Positions 1 through 11,823 of a DNA stretch of 12,608 nt are shown piece by piece; positions within the stretch are counted from its first letter, which is position 1; each line of letters starts with the position of its first letter. The stretch covers positions 1-12,608 of the forward strand of contig JALLAP010002402.1 in assembly GCA_036939355.1 (NCBI GenBank), written 5' to 3'. The stretch is from Thalassiosira profunda. Taxonomy: Eukaryota > Bacillariophyta > Thalassiosirophyceae > Thalassiosirales > Thalassiosiraceae. The notes under the pieces were generated by a model. That model was not told the DNA's origin and searched no databases. It worked only from the letters and a program-made list of their open reading frames with translations. The position numbers and the translations under genes are program-made.

Positions 1-2510
1 GGGAGATCAAAATGCACGCCAAGGAGCTGTGCTTCTCGACCGCGTCGTACGTCGTCAAGGGCGGGGACGGGATGGCGACGGAGGCGGAGGAAATTGCCGT
101 CAATACCAAAGCCACGACGGTGGCGTTTCGGTTTGGACAGGACATACCCCCCAACGCCACTCTGATCCTGAGCGTCGAGTACACGGGCTTTCTCAACAAC
201 AAGATGGCCGGGTTCTACCGCAGCGGGTACACCAACATCCACGGGGAGACCAAGGTCATGGCCAGCACGCAGTTCGAGAGTTTGGATGCCCGACGCGCCT
301 TCCCCTGCTGGGACGAGCCGGCCCGCAAGGCCGTTTTTGGCGTCACCCTCGTTGTGCCCATACATATGGATGCTTTCAGCAACATGCCGGAATTGTCCCA
401 CAAGACGTTGCCTGGGGGGAAGAAGAAGGAGCTGGCCTTCCTCGACTCTCCCGTCATGTCGACGTACCTCCTCGCCTTTTGCGTGGGGGAATTTGACTAC
501 GTGCAGGCGCAGACAAGCCACGGGGTATTGGTGCGGGTGTACACGCCCCCGGGGAAGAGCGACACGGGCGCCTTCGCCCTCGATTGCGCGACCAAATCCC
601 TGGACGCGTACGACGACTTCTTCGGGATTCCGTACCCCCTGCCGAAGCTGGACATGGTGGCGATTCCCGAGTTCGCAGCGGGCGCGATGGAGAATTGGGG
701 GCTGGTCACATACCGCGAGGTGGACCTCTTGATCGATCCGACCAAAGCCTCTTCGAACCAAAAGCAGCGCGTGTGCACGGTGGTCACCCACGAGCTCGCC
801 CATCAATGGTTTGGAAACCTCGTGACAATGACCTGGTGGGACGATTTGTGGTTGAACGAGGGCTTTGCTTCTTGGGCGGAGAACTGGGCCGCGGATGTGC
901 TCTTCCCGCAGTGGAAAATGTGGGATCAATTCACCACCGGGCACCTTTCGTCGGCGATGAGGTTGGATGCGCTGAAGTCGAGTCATCCGATCCAAGTGCC
1001 CATCCACCACGCCGAAGAGGTGGAGGAGGTGTTCGATGCCATCAGTTATTGCAAGGGCGGATCGGTGGTGAAAATGGCCCGCGCTGTGCTGGGGATGAAG
1101 GCGTTCCAGGCCGGTCTTGGCACGTACATGAAGAGGCATGCCTATGGAAACACGGAGACGTATGATCTCTGGAAGGCGTGGGAGGAGAGCAGCGGGATGC
1201 CCGTTCCAGAAATGATGGCGAGCTGGACGGAGCAGATGGGCTTCCCATTGGTAACGGTGACCGGTGAGAGCTGGTCGGACGACAAAGTCACCCTTGAGCT
1301 GGAGCAGGAATGGTTCCTGTCGGACGGATCTCCTCTCTCAGCGGAAGAGCAGGCAAAGAAGTGGTGCATTCCCATCATGACCTGCACTGCAGAGGGCACT
1401 CAGGGCGACATGATCTTCATGCGAGAGAAGACGGCCAGCGTCACTGTGCCCTTGTCAACCCCCGGCGGTTGGGTGAAGTTGAACGCGGGCCAGGATGTCC
1501 CGATGCGCGTGAAGCCGACTTCCGAAATGATTGATCGGCTGGGCGCGGGCATCAAGTGCAAAACTCTCCCTGCAGCGGATAGGGCGGTGCTGCTGACGGA
1601 TGGCTACGCTCTCGTCAAGGCAGGAAAGATGCAGCCGGAGGCGTTGATCAAACTTTTGGCGAACTACACTGATGAAGACGACTACATTGTTTGGTGCGGT
1701 ATCGCTGACATTCTGGGAGGTCTGGACACTGTCATGTGCGACGACGAGGCGATGAGTGCCAATTTCCGCAAGCTGGCCAAGAAGATTGTCATCGGGCTGT
1801 ACGGAAAGGTTGGCTGGGAGTCCAAGCCCACGGACGGTCACTTGGGCGTGCTCCTTCGCGGCATGATGATTGGCCTTCTGAGCACCTTCTGCTACGATGA
1901 CGGTGACGTGGCAGCGGAGGCGGCGCGGAGGTTTGGTTTATTCCAGCAGAACCACGCGGACATGGCGGCTCTTCCCAGCGACATGCGGTCGTCGGTGTTC
2001 AAGATTTACCTCAAATCCGGTGGCGTGGAAAGATACGAGGAAGTGAAGTCATACTTCGGCCAGGCGACCGACAACGCCGAGCGCAAGCACGTCCTTGCCT
2101 CTCTTGGGCACAGCATCGACCCAAAGCTGAAGCTGCGCACCCTGGAGTGGACCCTTTCGGGCGAGATCAAACTGCAAGATTTTTTTTACCCGATGGGATC
2201 GGTCCGTTCGTCGTCTCGCGAGGGTCGGGAGATTGCCTGGACCTTTTACCAAAACAATTTCCAGGCGATCAAGGACATGATCGGAAGCGCCAACCCCTCT
2301 CTGATGGATGCGGCAATCGTCAGTTGCGCTGGCGGTTTCTGTTCCAACGAAAAGGCCGGCGAGATTGAGGCGTTCTTCAAATCCAACCCTGTGCCAAAGT
2401 CTTCGCGCAAGATCCAGCAAACGGTGGAGAACATGCGGGCGAATGCCAAGTTCTTGGAGCTTCTGCAGGCGAGCGACTTGGCCAAGCCTGAGTTTTGGTC
2501 GTCGATGTGA
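1..2510 (+). CDS. M1 family zinc aminopeptidase, puromycin-sensitive type (5-prime partial)
   Basis: Removes N-terminal amino acids from peptides, probably in cytosolic peptide turnover. The frame is open from base 3 through the first ATG at 12 to the TGA at 2508, and the residues before that ATG (E-I-K) continue into the family's conserved HAKEL stretch, so the true start lies left of the window. Counting from the ATG at 12 (832 residues), the substrate-binding GAMEN motif is at 224-228, the zinc site HELAH at 260-264 with the third ligand Glu283 (HEXXH-X18-E), and the catalytic Tyr at 346 in ISYCKGG. An N-terminal beta domain (to ~165), the thermolysin-like catalytic domain (~170-410), a beta-sandwich and a C-terminal helical ERAP1-C-like region (~520-820) follow the family order. 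Usual length is about 870-890, so roughly 50 residues are missing. Targeting cannot be judged. No intron is seen. Confidence 0.95.
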   Translation, partial: EIKMHAKELCFSTASYVVKGGDGMATEAEEIAVNTKATTVAFRFGQDIPPNATLILSVEYTGFLNNKMAGFYRSGYTNIHGETKVMASTQFESLDARRAFPCWDEPARKAVFGVTLVVPIHMDAFSNMPELSHKTLPGGKKKELAFLDSPVMSTYLLAFCVGEFDYVQAQTSHGVLVRVYTPPGKSDTGAFALDCATKSLDAYDDFFGIPYPLPKLDMVAIPEFAAGAMENWGLVTYREVDLLIDPTKASSNQKQRVCTVVTHELAHQWFGNLVTMTWWDDLWLNEGFASWAENWAADVLFPQWKMWDQFTTGHLSSAMRLDALKSSHPIQVPIHHAEEVEEVFDAISYCKGGSVVKMARAVLGMKAFQAGLGTYMKRHAYGNTETYDLWKAWEESSGMPVPEMMASWTEQMGFPLVTVTGESWSDDKVTLELEQEWFLSDGSPLSAEEQAKKWCIPIMTCTAEGTQGDMIFMREKTASVTVPLSTPGGWVKLNAGQDVPMRVKPTSEMIDRLGAGIKCKTLPAADRAVLLTDGYALVKAGKMQPEALIKLLANYTDEDDYIVWCGIADILGGLDTVMCDDEAMSANFRKLAKKIVIGLYGKVGWESKPTDGHLGVLLRGMMIGLLSTFCYDDGDVAAEAARRFGLFQQNHADMAALPSDMRSSVFKIYLKSGGVERYEEVKSYFGQATDNAERKHVLASLGHSIDPKLKLRTLEWTLSGEIKLQDFFYPMGSVRSSSREGREIAWTFYQNNFQAIKDMIGSANPSLMDAAIVSCAGGFCSNEKAGEIEAFFKSNPVPKSSRKIQQTVENMRANAKFLELLQASDLAKPEFWSSM

Positions 2511-2582
2511 TGCGATGGCTAGATAGGCTGCATTATCTAGCTTTACTCAATAGATAGGTTTCAACCCTTCCGATGCTGAACC
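2511..2582. other. Short tail-to-tail intergenic spacer with a perfect stem-loop
   Basis: Only 72 bases separate the aminopeptidase stop from the SWEET stop on the opposite strand. The spacer holds an inverted repeat, GCTAGATA at 2518-2525 and TATCTAGC at 2534-2541, an 8-bp perfect stem with an 8-base loop. AGATAGG occurs at 2521-2527 and again near 2551-2557. Both transcripts must end in or beyond this spacer, so overlapping 3-prime ends are likely. A role in 3-prime end formation is inference. Confidence 0.6.
2518..2541. repeat. Perfect inverted repeat between convergent genes
   Basis: GCTAGATA and TATCTAGC form an 8-bp stem with an 8-base loop starting 8 bases after the aminopeptidase stop. 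Because it is symmetrical it would form in transcripts from either strand. Confidence 0.7.
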
Positions 2583-3446
2583 TCACGTCGCGTGCACATG
2601 CAAATTGCCCATTTCCTGAAGCACCGATGCTGCAGGGGCACCGTCGCCGTAGATTCCCTTCAAAAAGAGTTGCGCCAGGGCCGAGAGCAAACCCATCACG
2701 CAAGGGAACCATATGTAGAAATCGTTCATCAGCAACAACCCCACCGCAGACCACAGCGAGCAGTTGATCAAGCTTGCAATTGTGAACGGTAGGGCGATCG
2801 AGGCGGCTGATTTCGTCGCGATGACGTTCTTGGCAGCTACCAATGGCGATGCAAACAAGAGGATGTAGAACAGGACTCCCTCCTTTCCAACAAAATCCGT
2901 GCTCACTTTTCTGGGAAGCCTGGACACGATGAAGGCATTCGCCAGGGCGATCCACGTCACCACGAGCGCGTGCTGGTGGATTGTTCCCGGAAGACCCGAC
3001 GCCCCTGGCGGACTGCATTTACGATACTCTTTGCAGTAATACAAGCCCAATACTGTTCCAGCAATATTCGCCCCTAGCACCGGCGGCGACTCGGCCAACC
3101 AACCGTACAGGGACCAAATGAATCCGTTCGCCGCCATTGACGAATAGGGAAGCAGTGGAAGGCTGCCGACGCTCTGCGCTTTGGCTGCATCGATGATTGT
3201 AGGCAAGGGCGCCAGCGAGCACAGCACGCTCGTCGCCGGCGCGAGCTTGCCGCATATTTCCAACCACTTGGGAGGGTCGGCGCTCGTGGCGCCTCCGCGG
3301 AGCTTTGTCTCCCTCCGCGTCTTGCGCTTGGTGAATGCCCTCGGAACGGCGGCAGACTTTGCAGCGGACCGCGCGTCGGCGACGCTCACGTGATGTGAGA
3401 GAAATGACGCCGCGATAAACGCAACGCGGAGGAGCTTCGACATCAT
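2583..3446 (-). CDS. SWEET-type (MtN3/saliva) sugar transporter with N-terminal presequence
   Basis: SWEETs are seven-helix uniporters that pass sugars down their gradient; the substrate here is unknown. The 287-residue protein shows both three-helix MtN3 repeats. The first, about 62-140, contains GKLAPATSVL and QSVGSLPLLPYSSMAANGFIW; the second, about 188-268, contains SPLVAAKNVIATKSAASIAL, INCSLWSAVGLLL, NDFYIWFP and a final helix to GIYG. A linker helix lies at ~158-175. The family's conserved prolines and the Asn residues lining the pore (Asn107, Asn228) appear in place. Unusually for a SWEET, about 60 residues precede repeat 1: a hydrophobic signal-like stretch at 5-25, then a basic stretch ending in LRGGA (49-53). 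No ASAF motif follows the hydrophobic part. Start: two adjacent ATGs at 3446 and 3443; the first is used. The gene diverges from RPL5. No intron is seen. Confidence 0.87.
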   Translation of the reverse strand: MMSKLLRVAFIAASFLSHHVSVADARSAAKSAAVPRAFTKRKTRRETKLRGGATSADPPKWLEICGKLAPATSVLCSLAPLPTIIDAAKAQSVGSLPLLPYSSMAANGFIWSLYGWLAESPPVLGANIAGTVLGLYYCKEYRKCSPPGASGLPGTIHQHALVVTWIALANAFIVSRLPRKVSTDFVGKEGVLFYILLFASPLVAAKNVIATKSAASIALPFTIASLINCSLWSAVGLLLMNDFYIWFPCVMGLLSALAQLFLKGIYGDGAPAASVLQEMGNLHVHAT

Positions 3447-3771
3447 GATACTGGGATTGCTAGTGCGGCGCGTGCTCGGTACTATCTCGTCGACCTAGCG
3501 CCCTCTTGATTGTGGTGGGTTGGGAGCGCGAGGAACACAAGCGGGGTGTGGTGTCAAGGAGGGGGGCGGGGCGGGCGGGAGCGGGGAGGGAAGAGCGGCG
3601 GAGGGATGAGAAGGAAGGAAGGAGGCGCGCCGAGGTATCCATACGCCTTACAGTGAAGTACCTACACGTAGACTTCACGTCGGAATTAGTACCAATCTTC
3701 TTACCTGTTTACTGAACACTCTTTCCCTTCACAAACAACAACAGCTCTGTTGCTCCCCAACGATCTTCAAG
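3447..3771. promoter_or_regulatory. Divergent promoter region between SWEET and RPL5
   Basis: These 325 bases must hold the promoters of both genes. The plus strand is strikingly purine-rich from about 3560 to 3632 (G/A runs such as GGAGGGAAGAG). A near-perfect inverted repeat lies at 3653-3678. The stretch just before the RPL5 ATG (about 3700-3770) is rich in pyrimidines and CAA repeats, as expected for a ribosomal protein leader. No clear TATA box is seen for either gene. Confidence 0.55.
3653..3678. repeat. Inverted repeat upstream of RPL5
   Basis: GTGAAGT (3653-3659) pairs with ACTTCAC (3672-3678), and CTAC (3662-3665) pairs with GTAG (3668-3671), around a two-base centre with a two-base bulge on one arm. 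That is 11 base pairs in 26 bases. It ends 93 bases before the RPL5 ATG. It could be a binding site for a dimeric factor or an RNA hairpin in the leader, depending on where transcription starts. Confidence 0.6.
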
Positions 3772-4863
3772 ATGGTGCGTGCGCCGCCCCTTTGCCGTTG
3801 GTAGCCCTTGTTGGCGGCTGTTTGCTCCGCATCTGCTTTGGGATGATGTGGCTCGGTAGCTTGGGGGGCAATCGCTGGGAATTGCAAATTTACCGGCCGA
3901 CTCTCTCGCTCACATCCACTCTGCTCGTCCTCCTCCATCCAATAGGTGTTCGTCAAGATCCAAAAGTCCAAGGCTTACTACAAGCGCTACCAGGTGAAGT
4001 TCCGCCGCCGCCGCGAGGGCAAGACGGACTACCGCCAGCGCAAGCGCCTGGTCTGCCAGGCCAAGAACAAGTACCAATCCCCGAAGTACCGCTTCATCGT
4101 GCGCTTCACCAACCGCCAGATCATCTGCCAGATCGCCTACACCCTCATCGATGGCGATCGCATCCTCACCTCCGCCAGCTCGAACGAGCTCCCGCGCTAC
4201 GGATTGAGCGTCGGGCTCAAGAACTACGCGGCCAGTTACTGCACCGGCCTCCTCTGCGCCCGCCGTCTGCTCCAGAAGGTCGGATTGGATGATGTGTACG
4301 AGGGCAACGACGAGATCGACGGCAACGTCGTGTCCACCACCGTCGGCAAAACGACCTACTACGTCGACGAGGTCGACGAGGACAAGCGTCCCTTCCGCGC
4401 CCTCCTTGACGTGGGATGCAAGACCACCTCCACCGGCTGCCGCATCTTCGGCGCCCTGAAGGGAGCCGCCGACGGCGGCCTCGACATCCCCCACTCCGAG
4501 AAGCGCTTCCCGGGATACGACCGCGATTCGAAGGAGTACGACGCGGACATGCACCGCGAGCGCATCTTCGGGGGGCACGTCGGAGAGTACATGGAGTACC
4601 TCGAGGAGGAGGACAACACCAAGTACCAGCAGCAGTTCGCGAGTTACCTCGCGAACGACGTCGAGGCGGATGGTCTGGAGGAGCTGTACGAGGCGGTGCA
4701 CGAGAAGATCCGCGAGGATCCCTCCCCGTCGGAGAAGAAGGCGTTCAGCCCCGACAAGAGCTTCAAGCGCAAGGCGAAGAAGACGCTGGAGCAGCGGAAG
4801 GCGGACGTGCAGGCGAAGAAGGATGCGAAGAATGCCGAGCTCGAGGCGGAAGACGACGAGTAA
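3772..4863 (+). CDS. RPL5: 60S ribosomal protein uL18 (RPL5), two exons
   Basis: This cytosolic large-subunit protein binds 5S rRNA and helps deliver it to the ribosome. Exon 1 is only the ATG at 3772-3774; exon 2 runs 3946-4863, giving 306 residues that begin M-V-F-V-K-I-Q-K, matching the eukaryotic family start. Hallmarks include [17 protein letters not shown] (14-30), the KYRFIVR and IICQIAY strands, [11 protein letters not shown] (94-104), KVFGALKGA-like [26 protein letters not shown] and a Lys-rich C-terminal tail ending EAEDDE. Length matches the family (about 300). Without splicing, translation from the ATG stops at an in-frame TAG inside the intron (3802), so splicing is required. The gene diverges from SWEET and converges with the small secreted protein. 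Confidence 0.97.
3775..3945 (+). other. RPL5 intron 1, directly after the start codon
   Basis: The 171-base intron begins GTGCGT and ends in a pyrimidine-rich stretch followed by AATAG. It falls in phase 0 right after ATG, so exon 1 encodes only Met. Introns at or near the start codon are common in ribosomal protein genes and can enhance expression. The boundaries are set by homology: GTG TTC GTC AAG continues the conserved protein start. Confidence 0.9.
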
Positions 4864-5096
4864 TTCCATTGAGTAATGTGTTTACCTAAATCCAAAGCAC
4901 TGAAACGTCACTCTTGAGTGTCGCTCTCTCATCTATGCGACACCCCCTCTCCTTCAGAATTCAGTCCGTCTATCTGTGGTACATATTCTTTCCTGTTGGC
5001 TACCGCATCTATTCCCCACAGCCTGCCCAAATAAAGGTGCACTTCTGCACGTGGCCTACGGTCAGCCCCTATCTCCTCGCATGGTCTTTACTATTC
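4864..5096. other. Convergent 3-prime region between RPL5 and the small secreted protein
   Basis: These 233 bases hold both 3-prime UTRs. A hairpin is possible 54 bases past the RPL5 stop: GTGTCGC (4918-4924) and GCGACAC (4937-4943) around a 12-base loop. An AATAAA hexamer on the plus strand at 5030-5035 is a candidate poly(A) signal for RPL5, although such signals are weakly conserved in algae. Small reading frames here look like chance. Confidence 0.55.
4918..4943. repeat. Stem-loop in the RPL5 3-prime flank
   Basis: GTGTCGC (4918-4924) and GCGACAC (4937-4943) form a perfect 7-bp stem with a 12-base loop. A shorter competing palindrome, CACTC-TT-GAGTG, overlaps at 4909-4920. Function, if any, is unknown. 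Confidence 0.6.
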
Positions 5097-5600
5097 TCAC
5101 TCCACTGATAATGTTTCTCCCTCTCCGCTATCACCATCATCTGATACCAACGAAAATTTTCCCCACGGTCTCGGCGGTCCGAACGGCCCCACGCACGTGT
5201 CCAGCGGCAAAATAAACGAATCGTCTTCCCCATCCACGGGCTGCGGCACAATATTCTTCGTGCTCTCCTCCCTCCCCGCGCAGCTCCCATCGGTGGACTT
5301 GTAGAATGTCCTATGGAGATTTTTCATCCTCATTTCGTCGAATATATCGAACTCGCTCCACGACGGATCGTTGGGAAATAAATCCTTGGCGTTGTAGCAT
5401 TGATTGAGAGGGGTGGTGTATTGTTTGCACCCCGGAGTTTGCTCGTCTGCTCCGTCGCAGGATTCTGACGTGCACATGAGCGTGTTGATCTGTTTTGCCT
5501 TTTGCGGATCTGCTGGCGGCGGGCCGTCGGCAGCGACAAGCGATGCGCCGCCGACGAGGCAGACGAGGAAGGCGGCCTTGGCCGTCGAAGCTTTCTTCAT
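5097..5600 (-). CDS. Small secreted six-cysteine protein, unknown function
   Basis: The 167-residue product begins MKKASTAKAAFLVCLVGGAS, a clear signal peptide with likely cleavage after LVAA (24). The mature part, about 143 residues, has six cysteines at 43, 48, 58, 68, 107 and 136, enough for three disulfides; the central part is acidic and aromatic (LFPNDPSWSEFDIFDE, 74-89), and the tail is acidic (SDDGDSGEGE). No catalytic motif is visible and I do not recognise a named family. The frame extends upstream to an ATG at 5693, but that would put 31 residues before the signal peptide, so the ATG at 5598-5600 is preferred. The protein is presumably extracellular, in the cell wall or in the endomembrane lumen. 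No intron is seen. Confidence 0.75.
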   Translation of the reverse strand: MKKASTAKAAFLVCLVGGASLVAADGPPPADPQKAKQINTLMCTSESCDGADEQTPGCKQYTTPLNQCYNAKDLFPNDPSWSEFDIFDEMRMKNLHRTFYKSTDGSCAGREESTKNIVPQPVDGEDDSFILPLDTCVGPFGPPRPWGKFSLVSDDGDSGEGETLSVE

Positions 5601-6108
5601 GGTGGCGGCGCTGAGGGGTTGTTGTTCGTTGCGTTGAGCGGCGGGCAACAAAGTGTGAGCGGGAGCGGGAGGGGTTCCAAGAGAAGACCTCACGGGTCTT
5701 TATGTCCGTCACGCTCTCTCTAAGTTTCAACAGTGCTTTGTTCCTCACGTGACTTCTTGCCAACTTGCCTGCTTGGTTGACTTCGACAGCGAGCGGAGCG
5801 AGGTATTATCCGGATTGTCAAAGTCAAAGATGCTTCAGGGTTGTGTGCAGGGATCCTCTGTGTTAGATGATGACTGCTGTTCCTTTTATCATTCGGACCA
5901 TTTGCTTGCATTTCTTGCCATTCACCTATCCCGGCAAGCCGGACCTCTTTCGCTGTTTCTATCGCTGTTTTGCCTCTTCCATTGGTCGGGGCCATGGCCG
6001 TCTCAGTCTGTCATCTGGTCAGTGCAAATCTCCTCGCCACACTGCACCGACCTCTTTACCTATCTTTCTCCACATTTTTAGCTGCTTGCGATGCCCACAC
6101 GTGCATAT
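5601..6108. promoter_or_regulatory. Intergenic region upstream of the small secreted protein
   Basis: These 508 bases lie between two minus-strand genes and must contain the 3-prime UTR of the plastid membrane protein gene and the promoter of the secreted protein gene. The palindrome TCACGTGA at 5745-5752, about 145 bases upstream of the secreted gene's ATG, fits an E-box/G-box type site. A CACGTG also lies at 6098-6103. Nothing else that I can support is seen; the short reading frames are pyrimidine-rich and unlike proteins. Confidence 0.4.
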
Positions 6109-7296
6109 TTACTTTTGCCTCTGACCTCGCCTGCCTCTCCTCCTGCGCAAAGTCTCCTCCTCCTTCCTCGCCTTCTCCGCCGATTCCTCCGGCGTCGGGA
6201 TGGTCATCAACTGATCGTACGCGATCCCGCCCACCGCGAACGTCTTCGCCCCCCAAAGCAGCGACGGCTGGCCCCGCGACGGGGCCAAAACGGCCGCCAG
6301 GACGGCCAAAATCGAGTTGACCAGGTAGACTGTCGCCAGACCGCCCTGCAGCGCCCCCCGCAGCGGGTCCGGCAGGTTCGTCAGGGGGAATCCCGGATAC
6401 TCCACGAAGGCCATCAGCACCGCGCCCAGCGCCCCGATGAAGTGGCCCACCTGCAACGGCCCGCTCCCGATGCCCAGAAAGCTCGTCACCTTCTGCTGCC
6501 CCTTCCCCGACTTGTTGCTCGCCTCGTCGCTGTCGGTGCCCACCCCCGGCTCCACGTCCCCCAAGAGGGCGGAAATGAAGTCGATGCCCTCGTCCTCGAA
6601 GTAGGAATCGTCCTCGTCCGCCAGCGGATCCATCTCGAGCAGCTTCTCGTACGCCTTGACGTCGGACCGCTTGATCTTCTTCTTGGTCGGGATGGCGCTC
6701 GAGGGCTTCCCCGCCGTCGACTGGTCCTCCCTCTGCTTCTCCCGCTTGCGCTGCAAAAACTCGCGCGAATCGAAGAGGTCCTCCAGTTGGGAGTCGCCCC
6801 CGCCGGGAGCGACGGTGTACCCCGCCTTTTGGGCCGCGGCGGCGATGCGAGCGTCCTCCTCGAGCCGCTCGGGCGTGAAGGACGTCAGGTCGTCCTCGTC
6901 GTACATCATTTGTTCCTGGGCGAGGAGCTGCGCGGCCATGGCTTGGGCGGATTGCTTCTTTTCCTCGTCGGCGGCCGCCGCTGCCGATGGGGGCGCAGCT
7001 GCCGCGACGCCCTCGGTTGCCACCGGTGCTGCAGCCGTTGGCTCGGCCACCACCGCCTCCGAGGTCCCCCCATCCACCTTCTTGCGCTTCCGACGGCGCC
7101 GCTTGCCGCCACCGCTGCCCTTGCTGCCGCCGCTGGCCATGTGCAGCTCCCACATCCCCACACGATGCTGGGCAGACGAGTGCACAAGCGACAGCGGCCG
7201 AGGGCGACCAGGATGAAGCTGAAAAGAAGACGCCACCGCCGCGACGGCGGCCAGCGCGACGACCGCCCTTCCTACGGAGCTGTGCGGCCGTGCCAT
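6109..7296 (-). CDS. Predicted plastid-targeted membrane protein of unknown function
   Basis: The 395-residue product starts with a signal peptide (hydrophobic 10-22) whose likely cleavage context is VASS-F at 21-25, followed by a basic, hydroxylated stretch: the bipartite presequence that directs proteins into red-lineage complex plastids. Residues 55-280 look mostly disordered, with a Gly/Ser- and Lys/Arg-rich patch (54-73), an Ala-rich stretch (80-110) and acidic and coiled-coil-prone segments. The conserved-looking part is C-terminal: helices at about 282-300 and 316-338, a third, less hydrophobic one at 346-363, and a charged Arg/Lys-rich end. Two or three membrane passes are likely, so an envelope or thylakoid location is plausible. 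I do not recognise the domain. The gene diverges from the hydrolase at 7648. A very long plus-strand frame over it is the antisense shadow. Confidence 0.75.
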   Translation of the reverse strand: MARPHSSVGRAVVALAAVAAVASSFQLHPGRPRPLSLVHSSAQHRVGMWELHMASGGSKGSGGGKRRRRKRKKVDGGTSEAVVAEPTAAAPVATEGVAAAAPPSAAAAADEEKKQSAQAMAAQLLAQEQMMYDEDDLTSFTPERLEEDARIAAAAQKAGYTVAPGGGDSQLEDLFDSREFLQRKREKQREDQSTAGKPSSAIPTKKKIKRSDVKAYEKLLEMDPLADEDDSYFEDEGIDFISALLGDVEPGVGTDSDEASNKSGKGQQKVTSFLGIGSGPLQVGHFIGALGAVLMAFVEYPGFPLTNLPDPLRGALQGGLATVYLVNSILAVLAAVLAPSRGQPSLLWGAKTFAVGGIAYDQLMTIPTPEESAEKARKEEETLRRRRGRRGQRQK

Positions 7297-7647
7297 GACG
7301 TTCCCGATGCTGCAATTCGACGGCCCGGAGCGCAGGGGGAGAGTAGGCGGGTGCTACAGGTTGAGCAGGACAGCAGGAATCAGGAAGAAGTGCCGCGTGG
7401 CTTGCGTGCTGCGTGCAGCAACCGCAATCAAGTTGAATCAAGAAGTTGGAAGTTGAAGCTGCCTGGCGAACAACCACAACCACAACCCCGCCCGGTATCC
7501 CTCGCCGAGGCACGCCGCACGGGCGGCATGCTTCACTCGCCACGAGATCACACCGCCATGCCGCCCAATGCAACTGCCATTCGACCGGCGGGGGCGCCCC
7601 GCCCCGAGCTTCGTCGGCGACGGCCGGTGAGGAGGACAGGAGCGCCG
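7297..7647. promoter_or_regulatory. Divergent promoter between two plastid-targeted genes
   Basis: The 351 bases separate the start codons of the membrane protein and the hydrolase, so both promoters lie here. Visible structure: AAGTTG three times (7430-7435, 7443-7448, 7450-7455) followed closely by CAACCA/CAACCC repeats at about 7471-7488, which are partly complementary. No convincing TATA box is seen. The region is open on the plus strand in the hydrolase frame, but that continuation lacks protein-like character. Confidence 0.5.
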
Positions 7648-9069
7648 ATGAGCACATCACGTGCACTTTTGTTGCTGGCCGCGGTTGGAGGTTGTTCCGA
7701 TGGAACGATCTCGGCGTCGGCCTTCGTGCAGCACAGAAGTGCATCGCACCAGCGTTGCATCAATCCGCTCGTATCGCATCGGAAGGCACGCAGAAGAGAC
7801 GAGAATGGCGAGGGGTGGAGCGAGGCCGTGCAAAAGGCGGTGGGCACCCTCGACAAACGGCTCGACGTCCACGGAGGCAAGGAGCAACGGCGGCCCAACA
7901 TGTCCAACGGCAAAAATGGCAGATACGAATTCATCTCGCCTCTCTTGGAGGACGGGTATCCGCCGGCGGTGATGGAGTACAACGAACGGAGAAATCGCCG
8001 GCCCAAGCCGCTGTTGCTCTACCTCCCCGGATTCGACGGTACCGTGCTCGCCCCCTTCTTGCAATTCCCATCGCTGGGGGAAGAATTTGACGTGCGGGCC
8101 ATGCGAGTGGAAATGGATGATCGTTCGACGTTCGAGGAATTGAAAGAGGCCGTCGTCGAGTACCTGTTGCGAGAATGCCGGGACACCGACGGCGTCGCGT
8201 ACCTCATGGGAGAATCGTTCGGTGGGATATTGGCCACGGAGGTGGCGCTGGAGCTGCAGAGGCAGACGTACCGAGAGCACGTCGAGCTGCGAGGGTTGAT
8301 ATTGGTCAATCCCGCAACCTGCTTTCTGCGATCCAGTCTTTACGAACGCGGACCGTCGGTGGCCAACGCTCGACCGTTGCTGCCCATGCTGGAGTCGATT
8401 CAATACGTCGTTGGTTTGACGCGATTGGTGCCGCTGTTTCTCGACCAAGGGCTGGCATTACGGCAACTAGTCACAATACTGTCGTCGAAGGGGTTGCCAT
8501 CAGTGGTCAATAGTCCACAACGCGAGGCCTACATGGGGCGGGTGGCGTTCGACCTTCCACAGCGACTAAAGTTCATGCCCAAGGACACGCTCAAGTGGCG
8601 GCTCGAAGAGTGGCTGGAATGGGGCTGCGGCATCTTCGAGGATCGATTGCAAATGCTGCAGACGGCGCGAGATTCGTCCGACAGTGCGGGAGACGCAGAC
8701 ACTTATTCTCTATTGAAGCTTTCGCAGGAGTTGCGTGCACTTATCGTGGTGGGAGAGCACGATTTGACTTTGCCGAGCTACGATGAGGCTCAGCGGCTGT
8801 CGTCCCAGGTGTTTCGCAATGCGCACGTGCACGTCGTGCCCGGGGCCGGACACGCCTCGACGTGCGGCGGGTCGTTGCATCTGATGAGATTGATGCGGCA
8901 GGTGTTTCCAGAAATGGACGCGTATGGCAGCGATGCTGAGAGTGGCGACATTAATTGGGCGACAGAGGAATTGAATGGCTTGGAACCGCGATACGACGGT
9001 GCATCGATCGGCTTGAATCCTTTGTTGTACTGGTCTTCCGATTACTACCTGAAATGGAGGAGATCGTGA
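7648..9069 (+). CDS. Plastid-targeted alpha/beta hydrolase, phytyl-ester-synthase-like
   Basis: The 473-residue protein resembles the hydrolase half of plant PES/DGAT-like proteins, which make fatty acid phytyl esters and triacylglycerol in plastids. Key features: the oxyanion region LYLPGFDG at 124-131, the nucleophile Ser190 in GESFGG (188-193), a conserved LVNPAT (219-224), the acid Asp372 in GEHDLTLPS and His402 in GAGHA. The N-terminus is a signal peptide with ASAF at 23-26, a plastid presequence. The frame is open far upstream, but only the ATG at 7648 places the signal peptide at the start; the in-frame ATG at 7558 would add 30 residues. The acyltransferase domain that follows the hydrolase in plant PES1/PES2 is absent: only 71 residues follow the His. 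The stop lies within GTGAGG, so a downstream exon cannot be fully excluded, but nothing acyltransferase-like follows. Confidence 0.88.
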   Translation: MSTSRALLLLAAVGGCSDGTISASAFVQHRSASHQRCINPLVSHRKARRRDENGEGWSEAVQKAVGTLDKRLDVHGGKEQRRPNMSNGKNGRYEFISPLLEDGYPPAVMEYNERRNRRPKPLLLYLPGFDGTVLAPFLQFPSLGEEFDVRAMRVEMDDRSTFEELKEAVVEYLLRECRDTDGVAYLMGESFGGILATEVALELQRQTYREHVELRGLILVNPATCFLRSSLYERGPSVANARPLLPMLESIQYVVGLTRLVPLFLDQGLALRQLVTILSSKGLPSVVNSPQREAYMGRVAFDLPQRLKFMPKDTLKWRLEEWLEWGCGIFEDRLQMLQTARDSSDSAGDADTYSLLKLSQELRALIVVGEHDLTLPSYDEAQRLSSQVFRNAHVHVVPGAGHASTCGGSLHLMRLMRQVFPEMDAYGSDAESGDINWATEELNGLEPRYDGASIGLNPLLYWSSDYYLKWRRS

Positions 9070-9543
9070 GGGCTGGGGCTCAGCTGCACACCTCGCACAA
9101 AACTCAGAGAGGTACGCGGATTGTCTCATTGAGTTACCAGCCAATGGCTCTGGTTGCTACATGAAAGATGGCCCCCAGGAAAGCAACGAAAGAGGGTTCG
9201 CATCACGTTGTTTTGAGGCGTTGCAAACGACTGGCCAAGACTTGGGTTGGTCCTCGCTTGGACGATGATTGGACAAGGCACCCACATGAGAACCCTCTGG
9301 CGTTTCTTCGACTTGCTACCACCCTCCTCCCACACGAGATGTCACACAATTCTAGCTCACCTTCATGAGAACTGCGCCGTGGGATAGGATGTCAGGTGGT
9401 CAGTGAGAACCCTCTTGTCAACGATTCGGCCCTGATCCCCAAACCGCACTGCTCATAAAACGAAGAGTTGAAAGCCGGTATCCCTACCAACCATCGTCAA
9501 AGATATCCTTGATTGCAACTGCCAAATCTGACAGGGAAGACCA
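9070..9543 (+). promoter_or_regulatory. Intergenic region with promoter of the first tandem paralogue
   Basis: The first ~100 bases are the hydrolase 3-prime flank. From about 9260 the sequence matches the region upstream of the second paralogue. Shared elements are GATGATTGG (inverted CCAAT core), a 20-base identical block at 9279-9298, TGAGAAC copies at 9287, 9366 and 9404, GTCAACGATT near 9417, and CTGCTCATAAAA at 9449-9460. No gene is supported here. Confidence 0.6.
9449..9460 (+). promoter_or_regulatory. TATA-like box of the first tandem paralogue
   Basis: CTGCTCATAAAA is identical to the block at 10733-10744 upstream of the second paralogue and sits 84-95 bases before the ATG, leaving room for a leader of about 55-65 bases. 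Conservation between copies plus the position is the evidence. Confidence 0.5.
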
Positions 9544-10178
9544 ATGAAGCTCATCAAAGTATTGCTGATGCTTGCCGGGCTGGCCGGAGCGGGTGAGTGC
9601 GTTTCAGTTGAGGCATGAGGCATCGAGAACACTGGCGCGAGATCGAAATTGCCTGGGCTGCATCTCGTGCATGACGTCTCCTAACCAATTATCTGCACAC
9701 ACTTCCTTCTATTGCAGCCGGACATAAGCTGAGCCGAGCCCACAATCACCATCGCGGCAAATGCGGCAGGATATGCGTTATCCCGCAAGATCGCCGAACC
9801 AGGACCACCCGTTGCATGCGCCGCCTCCGGAGGGAGCTCGAGGAAGATCTGCGTGTAAACGTTGTCGCTGGCAATCGACAGAGTTGCCTCCTGAGGGTCT
9901 TCGTCGACAAGGACAAAGACTGCGATGATATGATCGAGATGGCATTGGAGAGGGCCGAGAATCGTATCCGGAGAAGAAACAACCGCGGCCGCACGAACTA
10001 CTGTCTCAGAGGTGGCACCAGCCGCACGGGCTCTACCAGCAAATCGACGACCAAAGGGACGAGCAAGTCAACGTCAAAGAGCACCTCCTCCAAGAGCTCG
10101 CACTCGAAATCGACGTACAAGTTATTCTCGAGCAAGAGCAAAAGTAGTAAAGGAGGCAGCAGCGGTGACTACTTGTAG
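9544..10178 (+). CDS. Secreted basic protein with Ser/Lys-rich tail, paralogue A (two exons)
   Basis: Exons 9544-9592 and 9718-10178 give 169 residues. A signal peptide (MKLIKVLLMLAGLAGA) is followed by a His-rich stretch (19-28) and a basic domain with Cys at 32, 36, 49, 73, 85 and 112; 32, 49, 85 and 112 are shared with paralogue B. Highly conserved patches are GKCG (30-33), DRRTRT (41-46), RRLRRELE (51-58) and RIRRRNNR (99-106). The tail, about 117-169, is rich in Ser, Thr and Lys with SKST and SSKS units and ends GDYL. No enzyme motif is seen. Tail composition recalls diatom silaffins and other wall proteins, so a role in cell wall or silica is possible but unproven. The intron model rests on consensus splice sites, restored reading frame and gapless alignment with B. 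Signal-peptide exon and domain exon are joined in phase 1. Confidence 0.78.
9593..9717 (+). other. Paralogue A intron 1
   Basis: The 125-base intron starts GTGAGT and ends TTGCAG, with a branch-point-like CTAAC at 9681-9685. It is in phase 1 and corresponds exactly to intron 1 of paralogue B. Confidence 0.82.
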
Positions 10179-10350
10179 TTGACGTTCTGCAATCGATGTC
10201 GTGGGTAGACCAAGAACTGTTGCCAAGTCTTACTGCGGCTGCCCACCGAGCATTAAGCTGTTTGCATGTATGAGAAGGAAGCCAAGGTTGCGCCATCGCA
10301 TTGTATTGACTAGGACTCATGAAGCATGAATCGGATCGAACTGCAGAATC

Positions 10351-10405
10351 TGCCTGTATGCACTGACATTGCAATCGTATAATGCCTGTATGCACTGACA
10401 TTGCA
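10351..10405 (+). repeat. 23-base direct repeat in the A 3-prime flank
   Basis: Two identical 23-base copies lie at 10351-10373 and 10383-10405, starting TGCCTGTATG and ending GACATTGCA, nine bases apart. The same opening TGCCTGTATG occurs once just after the paralogue B stop (11839-11848), also followed closely by GCAATCG, as after the first copy here. Confidence 0.85.
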
Positions 10406-10732
10406 TCCGTCTGAGAAATAAGTAAGACCTTCCACTATTACCCAAGTGCATGCACCTTACCATTTGCTTTGTTTGTTGTCAACGCTCGACAGCATGGACA
10501 GAGATCGAGGACCTGCTCTAGTCGACGCTTCACAAGTACGTCTCACCAGGACTGAAGATGATTGGCATCGCTTTGGCATCGCGCAGTAAAATGACACCCA
10601 CATGAGAACCCTCTTCTTCCCACACTAGTTGTCACTTTCTCAGCCCACACTCAGATGAGAACTGCTCAAGCAGCTTCTTGGTGGGATAGCAGCCTCGTGT
10701 CAACGATTTTGGCCCTCATCTCCGAGTGCATC

Positions 10733-10744
10733 CTGCTCATAAAA
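10733..10744 (+). promoter_or_regulatory. TATA-like box of the second tandem paralogue
   Basis: CTGCTCATAAAA, identical to 9449-9460, lies 97-108 bases before the ATG at 10841. It is followed, as in copy A, by a match to GAAAGCCGGTATCC, which probably belongs to the leader. Confidence 0.5.
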
Positions 10745-10840
10745 AGAAAGTCAACAATTGTGAAAGCCGGTATCCGCAACAACCATCGATACAAGACATC
10801 ATCGATTACAACCGCCAACACCTCTCAGAGGAAGGCACCC

Positions 10841-11823
10841 ATGAAGCTTACCACAGTATTGCTTTTACTTGCGGGGCTGACCGAGGCTGGTGAGTGCTTT
10901 TGGTCGAGGTATGAGGCATCGAGAACACCAGAGCGAGATCGAAATTGTCTGAGCTGCGTCTTGTGCATGATGCCGCCTCCTCTAACAGTATCTCACGGCA
11001 CACGCTGCTTTTCATGACAGTGGGGCATCGCCTGCGTCGAACCCCCCGCCACCACCACGGCAAATGCGGCGCGGTGGCCCTGATAGCAAATGATAGGAGG
11101 ACAAGAACCGCCCGGTGCATTCGCCGCCTCCGGAGGGAGCTCGAGGTGAGATAACAACATAGCGCAACGATGCAATTCATATATGCTGTGCTCTTCTAAT
11201 CGGTGTATGTCTCCATCGTGTGCTCTCAGCAAGAGTTCCGTGTGGACGTTGTCCGAGGCCGGAAGCGAAACGCCCTCTACAGGGTTCACGTGAACAAGAA
11301 CAAGAAGTGCGGCGATCTCATCGAGGACACATTGAAGGAAGTCGAACGTAGAATCAGGAGAAGGAACAACCGCAGCCGCACGAAGTACTGCATCAAGGAT
11401 GGTCCTGCGCGCAGGCGTCGTAGGAGGTCCACCAGCAGCACGGGACCCACCAGCAAGTCGACGACCACCAAAGGGACAAGCAGGTCCACAACGAGCCGTC
11501 TCAGTACGAGCAAATCCACCACCACGTCGACGCCCAAGAAGAAGACGAACGATCGCTACCTCAAGGGTACCTTCAGCTCGTCTTCCGTCAAGTCGTCCAA
11601 AGGCAGCAGCGAGAAGAAAACGTCGTCGTCTCCGAAGACGAGCTTCAGCTCATCGAGCACAAGCGGCTCAACCTCGGCGAAGAGCTCGGGATCCAAGAGC
11701 ACATCATCTAAGAGCAACAAAGGATCGAGTGGAAGCTCGGGGTCCAGTGGCTGCTCGTCCGCTGGCTCGTCTTCCAGCAGCACTTCCAGCAGCACTTCCA
11801 GCAGCGACGACTACTGGTGGTAG
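10841..11823 (+). CDS. Secreted basic protein with long Ser/Thr/Lys-rich tail, paralogue B (three exons)
   Basis: Exons 10841-10889, 11021-11145 and 11230-11823 give 255 residues. Signal peptide MKLTTVLLLLAGLTEA, His-rich stretch (HHH at 27-29), then the basic domain with Cys 32, 49, 85 and 112; it aligns with paralogue A without gaps over 1-112 (67 identities by hand). The last shared Cys is followed by a run of six Arg (119-124) and a tail at 125-255 with about 44% Ser, 18% Thr and 12% Lys, ending SSDDYWW. The tail carries mixed TSKST/SSKS units, a Lys cluster (PKKKT) and a terminal Ser-Thr run encoded by three 12-base DNA repeats. One tail Cys is present. No catalytic motif is seen. Silaffin-like phosphorylated or polyamine-modified wall protein is one reading; a mucin-like secreted protein is another. 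Function is unknown. Confidence 0.78.
10890..11020 (+). other. Paralogue B intron 1
   Basis: The 131-base intron starts GTGAGT and ends GACAG, phase 1, with CTAAC at 10982-10986 about 35 bases before the acceptor, the same spacing as in copy A. Its first ~85 bases closely match intron 1 of A. Confidence 0.82.
11146..11229 (+). other. Paralogue B intron 2, absent from paralogue A
   Basis: The 84-base intron starts GTGAGA and ends CTCTCAG, phase 0 after Glu58, with CTAAT at 11196-11200 as a candidate branch point. It holds an in-frame TAA just after the donor, so it must be spliced for the tail to be made. Paralogue A is contiguous at the same codon (between 9842 and 9843). Confidence 0.85.
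11770..11805 (+). repeat. Three tandem 12-base units in the paralogue B tail
   Basis: The unit ACTTCCAGCAGC occurs at 11782-11793 and 11794-11805, preceded by a copy with one change at 11770-11781. It encodes Ser-Ser-Ser-Thr repeats, directly before the terminal SSDDYWW-coding bases, and is a likely site of slippage-driven length change. Confidence 0.85.

Follow-up and report, generated by a model that had tools for sequence, protein, structure and literature searches.

Silaffins, cingulins and silaffin-like proteins, the silica-associated proteins of the diatom wall, combine a signal-peptide-like start with a Ser/Lys-rich tail. For silaffin-like proteins the Scheffel criteria ask for an N-terminal ER signal peptide and set a composition rule: at least 18% Ser and at least 10% Lys per 100 amino acids (excerpt of PMC3478156). 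A screen for KXXK proteins relies instead on repeated KXXK (X = S or G), 1-6 residues apart (excerpt of PMC5501833). The silaffin targeting signal, the pentalysine cluster, is defined as five non-consecutive Lys in 12-14 residues. Silaffins, cingulins and silacidins have at most one Cys and are predicted to be random coil throughout (excerpt of PMC5525289, which also ascribes an NQ-rich domain to the silicanin Sin1). Silicanins (the SiMat7 family) are secretory and contain Cys.

Proteins of comparable appearance are encoded by a tandem pair of genes, designated A and B, in the 12,608-nucleotide stretch analysed here (contig JALLAP010002402.1, "the window"), which appears as C1269 in a genome bin (G000) of 1366 contigs and 21.8 Mb. 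They share the signal-peptide-like start, the Ser/Lys-rich tail and the composition rule with silaffins, cingulins and silaffin-like proteins, but differ from silaffins and cingulins in having one KXXK each, no pentalysine cluster, as many as five or six Cys and a domain that is predicted to fold; like the silicanins, they contain Cys and are apparently secreted. The family to which the pair belongs has no name; its proteins are apparently secreted, and two orphan domains, A and B, occur among them (domains and genes are lettered separately; both genes encode domain A). That this family is real is secure. The preferred reading of its function, to which a probability of about 0.4 is assigned, is that proteins A and B are secreted cationic coat proteins of A-linker-B ancestry whose expression is shared with an A-linker-B paralog.

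Gene A (9544-10178, one GT-AG intron, 169 amino acids) and gene B (10841-11823, two GT-AG introns, 255 amino acids) were rebuilt from canonical splice sites, the last base of gene A, 10178, being taken from its open reading frame. Their parts are:

9544..9592, + strand: gene A exon 1, signal-peptide-like, ending in phase 1; layout as in paralogs C519 and C616
9593..9717, + strand: gene A intron 1, its 5' part 83% identical to gene B intron 1
9718..10178, + strand: gene A exon 2, domain A (Cys 32, 36, 49, 73, 85, 112), Ser/Thr/Lys tail and stop
10841..10889, + strand: gene B exon 1, signal-peptide-like
10890..11020, + strand: gene B intron 1
11021..11145, + strand: gene B exon 2, first part of domain A (Cys 32, 49)
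11146..11229, + strand: gene B intron 2, without counterpart in gene A, C519 or C616 and present once in the genome
11230..11823, + strand: gene B exon 3, remainder of domain A (Cys 85, 112), long Ser/Thr/Lys tail and stop

The rebuilt models bear out the original prediction that both spliced genes specify a signal-peptide-like start, a basic domain and a Ser/Thr/Lys tail. The gapless alignment that it placed at residues 1-112 (67/112 identical) extends to residue 116 (68/116 identical, 59%; BLASTP E 6e-40). Over residues 19-112 the identity is 55/94, against a best of 21 in 10,000 shuffles. The two genes differ by dN 0.34 and dS 0.78 (residues 19-115), and the paralogs C519 and C616, on other contigs of the bin, by dN 0.029 and dS 0.142, with dN/dS of domain A about 0.2; the dN and dS values argue for real coding genes. 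Intron 1 occupies the identical phase-1 position in A, B, C519 and C616. The join of exons 1 and 2 has independent support from a database relative, P0002, in which a single frame leads from a signal-like start through to the domain. Residues 4-17 of A, B, C519 and P0002 have mean hydropathies of 1.4-2.2, and these hydrophobic MKL...LLAG starts are what suggests that proteins A and B are secreted. The duplication took in the upstream regions (direct repeats at spacings of 1282-1316), and A and B are, by sequence, tandem duplicates.

Intron 1 is itself conserved between A and B (68/82 identical, 83%, in the 5' part; 95/124 over the whole intron), and its 5' part is more conserved than coding exon 2 (89/126 and 106/161). 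An intronic RNA was considered and set aside: intron 1 has no Rfam match up to E 1, and the folds of the A and B introns differ (z +0.75 and -1.58). Gene B probably gained its intron 2 after the tandem duplication, since A, C519 and C616 lack it; as a single-copy sequence in this genome it is not a repeated introner.

Domain A contains four Cys, at 32, 49, 85 and 112, common to both proteins, as had been claimed. Cys36 and Cys73 are found only in A and are both missing from B, which carries Cys233 in its tail. Joint presence in A and joint loss in B is the pattern expected of a disulfide pair, and domain A probably contains disulfides. The His-rich stretch described earlier exists but is modest (4 His within residues 17-31 of each protein). 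Structure prediction, suggested at the outset as a check, yields a small alpha/beta fold, beta-alpha-beta-beta-alpha-alpha, for domain A (AlphaFold pLDDT 76, pTM 0.67).

The domain had gone unrecognised on first inspection, and sequence and profile searches of Pfam, NCBIfam, PHROGs and PDB likewise return no significant match, to a non-wall family or any other. Weak hits (Pfam RAP1, E 0.49; NCBIfam, E 0.031; PHROG, E 0.013; PDB, E at least 0.13) are treated as chance. Literature searches, which could not be keyed on the sequence itself, found no paper on domain A or B. In a fold comparison domain A comes near the anticodon-binding domain of class II aminoacyl-tRNA synthetases, but not significantly; the A and B proteins differ from it in being apparently secreted and Cys-bearing, and neither A and B nor the frames of C519 and C616 match its Pfam domain at E up to 1. 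The structural Z score for this comparison may reflect just a common arrangement.

Besides itself, the gene B domain finds three places in the genome, namely gene A, C519 (E 2.1e-6) and C616 (E 2.1e-5). The C519 domain recovers the same four at E up to 10 (gene A, 1.1e-4; gene B, 0.005). Over 5.4 kb, C519 matches C616 at 89% identity; judged by sequence, the two are either haplotypes, strains in the bin or a recent duplication. Each has an MKL...LLAG-type start (LLGG in C616), the phase-1 intron in the same place and a domain A with the four Cys, followed by a 32-residue Ser/Lys linker and then by the second orphan domain, B. Domain B also occurs in tandem, three copies on contig C593 and two on C321, in frames of 788 and 703 amino acids that contain a transmembrane-like segment (identified by eye); these B repeats are acidic. 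Like Sin1, the B-repeat relatives look like membrane proteins with an outside part (a comparison by description only); as for the NQ-rich domain of Sin1, N+Q amount to 9/94 in the gene A domain and 13/162 in one C593 B repeat. Within 992-3358 of L014 (C593), ahead of the B repeats, lies a second small Cys motif, WYYSSEIAGC...FDSLRDCCLYHF, which in this genome is confined to C593 and C321. The bin seems to combine two strains or haplotypes, to judge from contig pairs with about 89% identity (C519/C616 and the C593/C321 flank) and from proteasome matches that come as twins with almost equal scores.

The pair had been thought to define its family. The family is indeed unnamed as far as searched, but that definition is too narrow: the relatives C519/C616, P0001 and P0002 carry domain B, and what is a tail in proteins A and B corresponds to a linker. 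Word-limited searches over some 5.8 billion proteins recover, at E up to 1, only the last two and P0003, all of them records of unstated origin. The gene B domain as query gave 0/156 candidates at that threshold, the C519 protein 2/678, and an 11-row alignment 3/7992 scored. P0002 (433 amino acids) has, in one frame, a signal-like start, two successive A domains, a Ser/Lys linker and B; its whole-length model, with pLDDT 40, is too poor to use. P0001 comprises the end of domain A, the linker and B. P0003 is a near-copy of the gene A domain from residue 50 and retains the gene A tail with a change in repeat length, an extra KGTSKSTS. This scarcity is weak evidence that the family is truly rare because such databases are expected to be poor in eukaryotic genes. 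A viral or prokaryotic origin was considered and rejected; no relatives appear in viral_contigs (three single queries) or genome_contigs (P0002 alone), in pattern scans that reach close relatives only.

The Ser/Lys tail of A and B matches the A-B linker of the relatives in place and composition. On the strength of this correspondence the tail is probably the old linker, which has grown after loss of domain B, in a history that cannot be rooted. The tails, counted from residue 113, are 57 residues long in A and 143 in B, with net charges (K+R-D-E) of +11 and +21; the mature proteins reach +23 and +42. In the C519 protein charge is partitioned between domain A (+13), linker (+9) and domain B (-17), and the B-repeat ectodomain of C593 comes to -67. 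The split is weaker in P0002 than in C519 (second A domain, -3; B, -7).

Upstream of A and B are candidate regulatory elements:

9287..9299, + strand: TGAGAACCCTCTg, a copy of the shared promoter word with 1 mismatch, upstream of gene A
9404..9416, + strand: TGAGAACCCTCTT, exact, 140 bp before the gene A ATG
9451..9459, + strand: GCTCATAAA, TATA-like, 93 bp before the gene A ATG
10603..10615, + strand: TGAGAACCCTCTT, exact, 238 bp before the gene B ATG
10735..10743, + strand: GCTCATAAA, TATA-like, 106 bp before the gene B ATG

The exact 13-mer TGAGAACCCTCTT has four copies in the 21.8 Mb genome, three of them upstream of A, B and C616. (The fourth is taken as chance; it lies inside a helicase-like coding exon, named by eye.) Its reverse, as control, occurs once. 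C519 retains only GAGAACCCT of the element. Within 2 mismatches the window holds four matches against 0.24 expected, one of them (9190-9202) on the opposite strand. GCTCATAAA is common to A, B and C616, nearer the start than TGAGAACCCTCTT; C519 has CTCATAAAG instead. The 20-mer at 9279-9298 recurs exactly at 10595-10614, and five of the six window copies of TGAGAAC fall within 260 bp before A or B (at least six copies arise in 3/200 shuffles of the window). In a comparison of 172 pieces of 350 bp with the region upstream of C616, 167 reach 11 bases or fewer, while A and B share 13 and 14. Of the remaining five pieces, three come from L016, coincide in part with the upstream region of C519 itself and match over at least 29 bases; the other two, from L044, a contig that bears the 13-mer, match over 14. 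The A-type genes can fairly be supposed to share their regulation; A and B do not count as independent cases.

Elsewhere in the window, 1-9069 contains ordinary genes that Pfam assigns to an M1 aminopeptidase, a SWEET-type sugar transporter, ribosomal protein L5 and an alpha/beta hydrolase, together with an orphan on the reverse strand (5097-5699) that has a hydrophobic start, several Cys and no significant Pfam match.

The resemblance to silica or wall proteins that was first proposed is weak on the silica side. If A and B were silaffin-like or cingulin-like wall proteins, phosphorylated Ser/Lys tails would template silica and domain A would serve as anchor, and the Ser/Lys composition rule does pick out 13/70 windows of A and 76/156 of B (25/32 of P0003, 0/244 of C519 and 0/334 of P0002). 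KXXK is not repeated; there is a single KSSK in A (158), B (179), C519 (147) and P0002 (260), and none in P0003. None of these five proteins has a pentalysine cluster. The six Cys of A and five of B, with a predicted folded domain, contrast with none or one Cys in silaffins and cingulins (excerpt of PMC5525289). Diatom biosilica proteins have an RXL prodomain that comes soon after the signal peptide; both proteins have RRL at 51-53, but within predicted helix 1 of domain A. The genome bears on the question as well. Judged by one marker family it looks fairly complete: the proteasome family has 21 matches on 16 contigs, or 14 loci once two twin pairs, recognised by eye, are each counted as one, where 14 subunits are expected, although subunits are unassigned and some loci may be other members, the family also matching 10/14 prokaryotic controls. 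There are 32 matches to chlorophyll-binding proteins. In favour of the silica reading, the single light-harvesting protein examined has its nearest matches in chains 8iwh, 8j7z, 8jp3 and 7vd6, which are diatom structures. On the other side, the bin yields no match to the silicon transporter (PF03842), in a search that had no silicifying genome as positive control; such transporters number 3-8 in diatom genomes and 1-2 in parmaleans, and bolidomonad transcriptomes showed none (excerpt of PMC10328945). A silica-free or weakly silicified ochrophyte fits these observations as host, though they do not prove it. All told, a silica role is unlikely, and less likely than one in the cell coat; an organic coat or matrix role is plausible.

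Small size, apparent secretion, Cys, net charges of +23 and +42 and tandem duplication would also suit a role in defence, in which the proteins attach to the anionic surfaces of bacteria and so kill or coat them. A structural set is what the common A-linker-B architecture and the acidic relatives with domain B suggest instead, and no Pfam family, antimicrobial ones included, is significantly matched; this explanation is distinctly improbable. The same low standing is given to surface recognition in mating or cell-cell contact, with the B-repeat membrane proteins as receptors and the secreted A proteins as ligands or coat. It would account for the divergence between C593 and C321, where B repeats are 52-64% identical in protein (6/6 pairs), the N-terminal part 71% and the adjoining gene 98%. 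However, dS of the six repeat pairs is itself high (1.1-3.4, against 0.26 in the neighbouring gene), so that repeat turnover explains the divergence without selection for recognition, and domain A is not fast in C519/C616. Finally, the genes might be mis-modelled or decaying and their similarity a by-product of basic low-complexity sequence; the tails are of low complexity and the gene models rest on sequence. Identity far above that of shuffled sequences, an intron in the same place in four genes and the separate database records P0002 and P0003 make this a very remote prospect.

On the coat-protein reading, an A-linker-B ancestor would have lost its acidic domain B, the Ser/Lys linker growing by repeat expansion, and tandem duplication would have yielded A and B, cell-coat proteins with a strong positive charge, which probably share their expression with the A-linker-B paralog by way of the common promoter words. 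Removal of the signal peptide would leave a small disulfide-stabilised alpha/beta domain A and a disordered Ser/Thr/Lys tail. Outside the cell, it may be guessed, A and B bind polyanions, either an acidic coat polysaccharide or the B repeats, likewise acidic, of the membrane-type relatives. Charges in this genome are split between the A and B types, and the simplest account is a secreted polycation that rests on coat polyanions or condenses with them. A more elaborate version is a charge-paired coat, in which acidic membrane-borne B repeats and secreted A polycations, bridged by A-linker-B proteins, condense electrostatically and TGAGAACCCTCTT marks the A-type genes. This is doubtful. The B-repeat genes (C593/C321) show no TGAGAACCCTCTT within 2 mismatches in the stretches read, where upstream coverage is short, and this weighs against such a coat.

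Many algal coat and frustule proteins match nothing in databases. In this instance the pair yields two defined orphan domains, related architectures, a candidate regulatory element and a charge complementarity that can be tested. A charge-paired coat, if it did exist, would parallel the silaffin system without silica, in an ochrophyte lacking silicon transport. If the host is truly without silica, silaffin-type Ser/Lys-rich secreted polycations would prove able to serve an organic coat, and organic-coat polycations would be a possible precursor state for silica templating.
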